From: Methylacidimicrobium sp. B4
Lineage (GTDB): Bacteria; Verrucomicrobiota; Verrucomicrobiia; Methylacidiphilales; Methylacidiphilaceae
DNA length: 64,000 nt
Direction: 5' to 3'
Assembly: GCF_017310545.1 (NCBI RefSeq)
Contig: NZ_CP066203.1
Span: 2,170,001-2,234,000, forward strand
Each line of letters opens with the position of its first letter. The stretch's first letter is position 1. Under the pieces are notes generated by a model. It did no database searches, was not told the origin of the DNA, and was given only the letters and a program-made list of their open reading frames with translations. Below, one piece after another: positions 41,341 through 50,803 of the stretch. Both the position numbers and the translations under genes were made by a program.

Positions 41341-41634
41341 ATGAGAAAGCTAGTGACCGCACTTGCGCTCGCCTTGGCCATCGGGCTTCCGGGGGCCGTC
41401 GCCGAGGTATCGGTGATGAACACCACGAAGGGGATGCGGTTGACCATCCTTCCTGTGATGGGAGCGACTCGGGAGGAGGCACCGGCGCCGAAGGGCAAGG
41501 TTCGCGTCGAATCGGTAGCAGTTCACAAGGCCATCCCAGGAAAGCCGGTCGCTCATGGCGCCAAGGGCTCGAAGACGCGTCAGACGTCTACGCGGAGCAA
41601 GGCGGCTAAGCCGAGCGGGCGGAATAAGGGCTGA
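41341..41634 (+). CDS. Small basic secreted protein, paralogue B
   Basis: A 97-residue protein with a clear signal peptide (MRKLVTALALALAIGLPGAVA). The mature part has TTKGMRLTILPVMG and PKGKVRVESVAV, matching the core of the protein at 34931, and a Lys/Ser/Arg-rich tail. It is predicted to be exported, cationic and largely unstructured. The 3' end overlaps the convergent DUF4242 gene by 29 nt. Together with its paralogue it marks the two ends of the accessory stretch. Confidence 0.7.
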   Translation: MRKLVTALALALAIGLPGAVAEVSVMNTTKGMRLTILPVMGATREEAPAPKGKVRVESVAVHKAIPGKPVAHGAKGSKTRQTSTRSKAAKPSGRNKG

Positions 41635-41884
41635 TCAGATCCCGAATTTCGCAGATGCGATTCGCGGGGAAGCCCCCCTTTTGGGCATGTTCGCGGATCG
41701 CCTGCTCGTTGGGGGCCAGATAGACGCAATAGATCTTGTCGTCGGTGACGTAACTGTGCAGCCACTGGATTTGCGGGCCCATCGCATCCAGGACCGAGCA
41801 TGATTTTTCGGAAATTCCGGCGAGTTCCCGGGGAGAGAGTTTTCCGGCCCCGGGGATCTCTCGCTCAATGATATAACGTGGCAT
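41606..41884 (-). CDS. DUF4242 family protein
   Basis: A 92-residue protein matching DUF4242: MPRYIIEREIPGAGKLSPRELAGISEKS and QWLHSYVTDDKIYCVYLAPNEQAIREHAQKGGFPANRICEI. One structurally characterised relative is a nickel-binding ferredoxin-fold protein, but the family's role is not settled. ATG at 41884 matches the family start exactly; longer upstream readings are rejected. It is divergent from the ammonium transporter region. Confidence 0.88.
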   Translation of the reverse strand: MPRYIIEREIPGAGKLSPRELAGISEKSCSVLDAMGPQIQWLHSYVTDDKIYCVYLAPNEQAIREHAQKGGFPANRICEIRDLISPYSARSA

Positions 41885-42133: not shown

Positions 42134-42150
42134 CTGGCACGCCGTTTGCT
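42134..42150 (+). promoter_or_regulatory. Sigma-54 promoter upstream of amt
   Basis: CTGGCACGCCGTTTGCT fits the sigma-54 consensus YTGGCACG-N4-TTGCW at every fixed position, with GG at -24 (42136-42137) and GC at -12 (42148-42149). Transcription would start near 42161. This is the expected promoter type for nitrogen-regulated ammonium uptake. Confidence 0.8.
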
Positions 42151-42177
42151 TTGAATGGAGCCGCAGGAGGAAACGGG

Positions 42178-42429
42178 ATGAGGGGTTCGAGCAGGGGAGG
42201 AGTTGAGACTTTCTTGGCCCGACCAACCGAGGGCGTTCGTGGAGCCGCCCATTCGGCTGGACGGGTAGACCGAGAGGTCCCCATCGCATGGAAAAAGGGA
42301 CGTCGTGCTTTCGCTTGGCGCGAGCCGCGCTTCCTTCGGATTGGCTTTGGGACTTCCCCGCATCCGTCCGGCAGGAAGAGAAAACCGCATGCGGGCCTGG
42401 CCCCCGGGATCGCACCGCAGAAGGCGTAG
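42178..42429 (+). CDS. Possible small basic protein between sigma-54 promoter and amt
   Basis: An 83-codon frame whose ATG has AGGAGG 7 nt upstream (42165-42170) and lies just 17 nt after the predicted sigma-54 start site. It ends 27 nt before amt. The protein would be basic (RGGVETFLARPTEG..., KKGRRAFAWREPRF, GRKRKPHAG) with no membrane helix and no known domain. The signals are excellent, but the composition is not clearly protein-like. It could be a leader peptide or a new small gene. The usual partner of amt at this position, glnK, is not here. Confidence 0.4.
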   Translation: MRGSSRGGVETFLARPTEGVRGAAHSAGRVDREVPIAWKKGRRAFAWREPRFLRIGFGTSPHPSGRKRKPHAGLAPGIAPQKA

Positions 42430-42456
42430 CTCCCACAAGCAAAGGAGATGATCAGA

Positions 42457-49723: not shown

Positions 49724-50253
49724 GCTGGCGAATCAATGGTCAGAAGACGGCAATTGTTCTGGTGGATGTTCAAGAGCGGCTGTGCGCCGCCGTCGCCGGT
49801 GCGGAGAGGATCCTTGCCAGGATCGATCGCCTTCTCGAAATCGGAAAGCTCTTCTCGATTCCGGTTCACCTGACGGAGCTGGCTCCGCAGAGATTCGGCC
49901 CTATCTCCTCGCCCATTCTTCAAAAGCTCGGGGAGGGTGGCTCGCGCTCTGCGCGAAATGTCCTTTCGGCGGGCTCCGCGTTGCCGAAAGAGCTGCCGCA
50001 ATTTCTCCTCGTCGCGGGAATGGAAACGCATGCGGCGGTCCGACAAGCAATCTACGATCTCCGGGAGCGAGGGCATGCGGTTTATCTGCTGGCCGATGCC
50101 GTCGGCTCGCGCAATGCTTGCGATCACCAAGTCGCCCTGGACGAGATGCGACAAGACCGCATCGTGGTGACGACGCTCGAAGCGGCGGCTTACGAGCTCG
50201 GAGCCGAGGCGGATGAGCCGCTTTGGGACAGGCTGCTTCCTCCGCTATCGTAG
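49720..50253 (+). CDS. Isochorismatase-like hydrolase, catalytic Cys absent
   Basis: A 177-residue Rossmann-like protein of the isochorismatase/nicotinamidase superfamily. The first aspartate is in AIVLVDVQERL, and FLLVAGMETHAAVRQAIYDLRERGHAVYLLADAVGSR matches the usual GxExHxCVxxTA block. The family's nucleophilic Cys is replaced by Ala (ETHAAV). That argues against nicotinamidase-type chemistry and for either an isochorismatase-like mechanism or a non-catalytic role. ATG overlaps the lysA stop (ATGA). Confidence 0.85.
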   Translation: MSWRINGQKTAIVLVDVQERLCAAVAGAERILARIDRLLEIGKLFSIPVHLTELAPQRFGPISSPILQKLGEGGSRSARNVLSAGSALPKELPQFLLVAGMETHAAVRQAIYDLRERGHAVYLLADAVGSRNACDHQVALDEMRQDRIVVTTLEAAAYELGAEADEPLWDRLLPPLS

Positions 50254-50685
50254 CGATTGCGCGGCCTCCGCCCGCAGTTTCAGCGGTCCATCCGAGAGCT
50301 CGGCTGCCCTGGCCGACTTTTCGCGGGGAGGGTCGATCGAGATGACGCGAAGAACGGGGCTGAGAAGAATCCGATCCTGCGGGTCTCGGACGCGGGCTTT
50401 CCGGAGAATCGTCTTTACCGCCGCAGGGACCAGATCGACCGGAAGGATCAGCTCGATCTTCGTTTGAGGCAAGAAGTCCGGGAGATAATCCTTGCCGAGG
50501 TAGCGTTCTACCTCCTCCGGCGCCTTTTCGAACCGTTTCACGCGACTCACCAGGGCTCCTTCGATCCCCCGATCGGCGAGCGCATCGCGGAGGTCGCCGA
50601 GGCAAAACCGGGGAATGACGGCCTCCACCTTTTGAAACAGTCGGGTGGAAAGGACCGGACCGTGCGTCGTGGGCTGATCCTCCAT
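50245..50685 (-). CDS. Divergent P-II (GlnB-like) family protein
   Basis: A 146-residue protein. VEAVIPRFCLGDLRDALADRGIEGALVSRVKRF matches the P-II N-terminus; the T-loop region is EKAPEEVERYLGKDY, with Tyr at the position of the modifiable Tyr51. IELILPVDLVPAAVKTILRKARVRDPQDRILLSPVLRVISI matches the C-terminal half. The ATP-binding B-loop (usually TGKxGDGKIF) has lost its glycines, so ATP/2-oxoglutarate sensing may be altered. It has an extra N-terminal segment and is not next to amt, unlike typical glnK. It ends 9 nt inside the convergent hydrolase gene. Confidence 0.75.
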   Translation of the reverse strand: MEDQPTTHGPVLSTRLFQKVEAVIPRFCLGDLRDALADRGIEGALVSRVKRFEKAPEEVERYLGKDYLPDFLPQTKIELILPVDLVPAAVKTILRKARVRDPQDRILLSPVLRVISIDPPREKSARAAELSDGPLKLRAEAAQSLR

Positions 50686-50803
50686 GCTTCTTTCGAGCAA
50701 GCAGCTTGCGTGCCATTCCCGCAAGCGGGGAAGGACCGGCTTCGTCGACCTTGCGGAGCCGCCGGTTTTCGGGCAAGCTTGAGGGTATCCAAGTCGATTT
50801 CCT

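Follow-up and report, generated by a model that had tools for sequence, protein, structure and literature searches.

The ammonium transporter gene amt of a Methylacidimicrobium genome (an acidophilic methanotroph of the Verrucomicrobia; a single contig of 2.37 Mb) is preceded, as judged from conservation among relatives, by a sigma-54 promoter and by a leader that retains a Shine-Dalgarno sequence and an ATG at its 5' end, while the open frame of 83 codons that begins at this ATG is lost in relatives. An earlier note on this DNA had described the frame as a possible new small gene; it is probably not a gene. Where DNA is G+C-rich, strong local signals (promoter, Shine-Dalgarno sequence, ATG and open frame) are not enough to establish a gene. 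What is left is an oddity and, it appears, a modest puzzle: a ribosome-binding site that is kept before a drifting frame, without a conserved peptide. The explanation favoured here, with confidence slightly better than even, is that amt is expressed from a sigma-54-driven mRNA whose leader of 250-300 nt keeps a ribosome entry site at its 5' end while the encoded peptide drifts. The features concerned are listed in Table 1, with positions in the window, that is, the whole stretch of 64,000 nucleotides analysed.

Table 1. Features of the amt upstream region and of amt, in window coordinates
Feature	Position	Strand	Evidence
Candidate enhancer palindrome TTGCTGGGCAA	41962..41972	.	173 nt upstream of promoter; TTGC-N3-GCAA
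Sigma-54 (-24/-12) promoter of amt	42134..42150	+	CTGGCACGCCGTTTGCT; TGGCACGC-N-G-N2-TGCTTT common to 5/5 readable Methylacidimicrobium loci
Predicted transcription start	42159..42161	+	Predicted from spacing, about 12 nt past the -12 C (42149)
Invariant 13-nt block CCGCAGGAGGAAA with Shine-Dalgarno AGGAGG	42161..42173	+	Identical in 5/5 leaders
83-codon open frame, not conserved as protein	42178..42429	+	Intact only here and in LP2A; without coding composition
amt ribosome-binding region (AAAGGAGATGATCAGA)	42439..42456	+	AAAGGAGA(TG)NTNAGAATGG near-invariant in 5/5 leaders
amt, ammonium transporter with N-terminal signal-like segment	42457..43989	+	Pfam PF00909, E 1.6e-107; TIGR00836 above cut-off

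The sigma-54 promoter of amt

The genus sample comprised seven genomes. One of these (G001) has no amt match and in another (G003) amt is interrupted by a contig end; readable amt upstream regions were available for five, namely the genome under study, Verrucomicrobia bacterium LP2A (96% amt identity), the Methylacidiphilaceae MAG STB_62 (86%), Methylacidimicrobium tartarophylax (85%) and G005. The sequence TGGCACG-N4-TTGCT at 42135 fits the -24/-12 sigma-54 consensus used for comparison (GG, GC and fixed spacing), as the earlier note had proposed. The element TTCTGGCACGC-N-G-N2-TGCTTT is found at the same position in all five readable loci of the genus (4/4 readable relatives), and TGGCAT-N5-TTGCT lies upstream of amt in 5/5 Methylacidiphilum loci (L011-L015). 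Because of this conservation, the promoter is considered, on sequence grounds, to be genuine; it is ordinary and well supported. In the family's third genus (L016), a -24/-12 element was looked for before amt and none was found. Genome-wide (2.37 Mb), the pattern TGGCACRNNNNTTGCW has five matches, compared to none for a reversed-pattern control, so that the promoter exceeds what chance would give; one of the other sites lies before a nifB-like gene and one before a porin-like gene, both named by eye. Of 13 family genomes, 12 carry the sigma factor gene rpoN, which is missing only from the 83%-complete G003. Additionally, five strong sigma-54 activator domains are encoded in the genome under study. 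A palindrome of the form TTGC-N3-GCAA occurs upstream of the promoter in four of the five genus loci, at -123 to -173, and is a candidate activator site at which binding is presumed.

In the glnK-amtB system of Proteobacteria, amtB promoters are sigma-54-dependent and activated by NtrC. The amt locus resembles this system in that an ammonium transporter gene follows a -24/-12 promoter and the genome encodes sigma-54 and activators. It differs in that no glnK stands between the promoter and amt, where a long leader is found instead, and in that the activator is only presumed to be of the NtrC type. In the related Methylacidiphilum fumariolicum SolV, expression of amtB is reported to be three- to fourfold higher in cells that fix N2 (PMC3404531). 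The conserved elements document a link of sigma-54 to amt across methanotrophic Verrucomicrobia.

Fate of the 83-codon frame in relatives

The coordinates in the earlier note are correct: AGGAGG (42165-42170) is followed 7 nt later by the ATG at 42178, the frame ends with TAG at 42427-42429, and the amt ATG (42457) is 27 nt further on. Likewise, the 83-aa product has no match in Pfam or NCBIfam, in agreement with the statement that it carries no known domain. The further suggestion of a small nitrogen-responsive protein is not supported by the comparison, since the frame is intact in only one of four relatives and is disrupted, with the promoter kept, in the other three, an outcome that the earlier note had itself given as grounds for refuting the gene. 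In LP2A, the frame has 83 codons, the same stop and 88% amino acid identity. In STB_62, the ATG is 3 nt later and the frame stops after 42 codons, 85 nt short of amt. In M. tartarophylax and G005, the frame meets no stop and, after 73 and 80 codons, respectively, joins amt in the same reading frame. Additionally, a 2-nt indel between M. tartarophylax and STB_62 shifts the frame inside a stretch of similar DNA.

Among 62 genomes of the order, LP2A alone has a full-length relative of the frame. Weak matches to the 83-aa product in its own genome (best E 0.01) and in G006 and G012 (E 0.004 and 0.007) cover short stretches and were taken as chance, as was a short match in G056 (E 3.5e-4) that contains an internal stop. 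The G006 match sits approximately 540 nt upstream of the amt gene of that genome, outside the leader. As far as titles and the opening parts of abstracts go, no paper found in the literature describes a frame in the amt leader of these bacteria.

A ribosome-binding site is retained at the start of the leader

Behind AGGAGG, an ATG is present in all five leaders, at a distance of 7 nt in four genomes and 10 nt in STB_62. Between CCGCAGGAGGAAA and the amt ribosome-binding site, which forms the other conserved end of the leader, approximately 52 of approximately 260 positions are invariant (gapped columns being counted as variable), and it is against this background that CCGCAGGAGGAAA stands out. 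The block occurs once each in the genomes of the studied strain, LP2A and G005, twice in M. tartarophylax and three times in STB_62; the three extra copies (L150, L153 and L154) are not in amt leaders.

In the favoured explanation, an NtrC-type enhancer-binding protein would activate sigma-54 RNA polymerase under nitrogen limitation. Sigma-54-dependent transcription begins approximately 12 nt past the -12 C, and a start near 42160 would place about 250-300 nt of leader ahead of amt on the mRNA. At its 5' end this leader would carry a strong ribosome-binding site, kept by selection, and an ATG, at which ribosomes would probably load at once. The act of translation would be the selected property, be it through ribosome loading, through protection of the leader against Rho or RNases, or through feeding of amt. 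Since the peptide is not conserved, any function of the leader would have to lie in this act and not in an 83-residue protein. A regulatory leader or uORF at amt is possible, because the ribosome-binding site and the ATG behind it are kept in all five leaders. A further version, in which amt output during nitrogen stress is set by translating an upstream frame whose sequence does not matter, for instance because this shields the long G+C-rich leader from Rho, is tentative and rather doubtful.

An alternative origin of the Shine-Dalgarno sequence and ATG is suggested by Methylacidiphilum, whose amt shares 70-72% identity with that of the studied strain and has a sigma-54-like element in common with it. 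Unlike in Methylacidimicrobium, however, these genes have no Shine-Dalgarno sequence or leader: the ATG is only 13 nt after the -12 C in 5/5 loci (L011-L015, spacing judged by eye), so that the transcript is predicted to be practically leaderless. The leader ATG of Methylacidimicrobium is in frame with amt in four of five genomes, with no intervening stop in two. Therefore, amt, or an N-terminal extension of it, may once have started near the promoter, leaving a remnant start and a decaying sequence behind it. This is unlikely, as 13 invariant bases are not expected of a relic while approximately 80% of leader columns vary, and amt has a conserved ribosome-binding site of its own. Slightly less probable again is that CCGCAGGAGGAAA works as a DNA or RNA element, be it an initial transcribed region or a protein or small-RNA site, and not via ribosomes. 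Its location directly at the predicted start and the drift of the peptide behind it would agree with such a role; however, each of the five leaders has a complete AGGAGG and, 7-10 nt further on, an ATG, the four other sigma-54 motif sites of the genome lack the block, and the genome has a single copy of it.

The favoured explanation, translation of the leader without a conserved product, was also compared with known types of leader. An example of a bacterial regulatory uORF or leader peptide is toiL, located before topAI (PMC12121999). As in such elements, a long 5' leader ahead of the gene to be regulated contains a short frame that looks translated; unlike them, the amt leader shows neither a conserved peptide nor a supported RNA structure nor a known stalling signal. 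For an attenuator-type leader, conserved control codons or a conserved peptide were looked for and not found, the peptides diverging across the leaders; nor were alternative RNA structures or a terminator found in the leader. A riboswitch or other structured leader was rejected: the whole window gave no Rfam match at gathering thresholds, the leader folds no better than its shuffles (z +1.27), 89 out of 100 of which were equally or more stable, and the covariation term of a five-sequence consensus fold was unfavourable (+1.55). A structured RNA switch is therefore not supported.

Coding signature of the frame

The G+C content at codon positions 1, 2 and 3 of the frame is flat (0.66/0.65/0.63), compared to 0.59/0.48/0.79 in amt and 0.61/0.44/0.75 in the gene downstream of amt, which, named by eye, we take to encode a ribonucleotide reductase. 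Its codon score (log-odds per codon) is -0.13. The lowest score among 44 segments of window genes is -0.10 (median 0.23), and the median of 88 wrong-frame segments is -0.36, with a 95th percentile of -0.19; the frame thus falls between the two, under every gene segment and over the 95th percentile of wrong frames. At least 82 codons were open after the ATG in 26% of dinucleotide shuffles (23% in a second run), so the openness of the frame is no more than expected by chance (P ~0.25). When the frames of the studied strain, M. tartarophylax, STB_62 and G005 were combined, with LP2A excluded as a near-duplicate, selection keeping them open was not significant (P 0.20); LP2A alone gave P 0.107.

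Comparison with LP2A gives a mixed picture. Divergence is 7.5% in the frame region, similar to amt (7.0%) and half that of the upstream intergenic DNA (14.2%), and is 2.3% in the promoter plus 5' end. The 19 differences within the frame fall 6/2/11 on codon positions 1/2/3, a third-position excess with P 0.02, and no stop has been gained between the two frames, although one was gained in 40% of simulations. However, 10 codons are changed in meaning against 6 changed silently, and amino acid changes are not significantly low (P 0.10). By the NG86 method, dN is 0.057 and dS 0.151 for the frame, compared to 0.019 and 0.264 for amt; dN/dS is 0.38 (NG86) or 0.66 (YN00) for the frame and 0.07 or 0.06 for amt. 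That the frame encodes a genuine small protein of recent origin, limited to the studied strain and LP2A and co-transcribed with amt, would suit its intact state, shared stop, third-position excess and amt-like divergence in this pair, but is improbable, the least likely of the alternatives, given these amino acid changes, the absence of a codon-position signal in its composition and the loss of the frame in three relatives.

PII genes and neighbouring genes

The earlier note had placed the frame in the position normally taken by glnK. A PII gene adjoining amt, as in a glnK-amtB operon, was looked for at the locus and not found, and the frame itself has no P-II match. Two PII-like genes are present elsewhere in the genome (window 50245-50721, minus strand, and G000:C1:404114), and a replacement for PII at amt is therefore not needed. 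P-II genes are present in 13/13 family genomes. The PII-like gene in the window, approximately 6 kb downstream of amt, is divergent: it matches NCBIfam PRK10858 below the cut-off (E 1.2e-18), and its Pfam P-II score of 22.6 bits is under the cut-off of 25. Several relatives have a similar divergent PII gene approximately 6-9 kb from amt.

Additional observations concern amt and its surroundings. An alternative ATG start of amt lies at 42448. The amt gene of G005 (L010 and L018; G005:C1:694275-695809) is broken across two frames near residues 417-428, reflecting either a frameshift in the gene itself or an error in the sequence. In one Methylacidiphilum genome, a second, partial amt match (L019; G008:C1:1259035-1259307) lies approximately 3 kb away from the complete gene. 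On the upstream side of the sigma-54 promoter, a small divergent gene (MPRYIIEREIPGAGK...; 41606-41884, minus strand), which presumably resembles those of DUF4242-type proteins, has its start 250 nt from the promoter.
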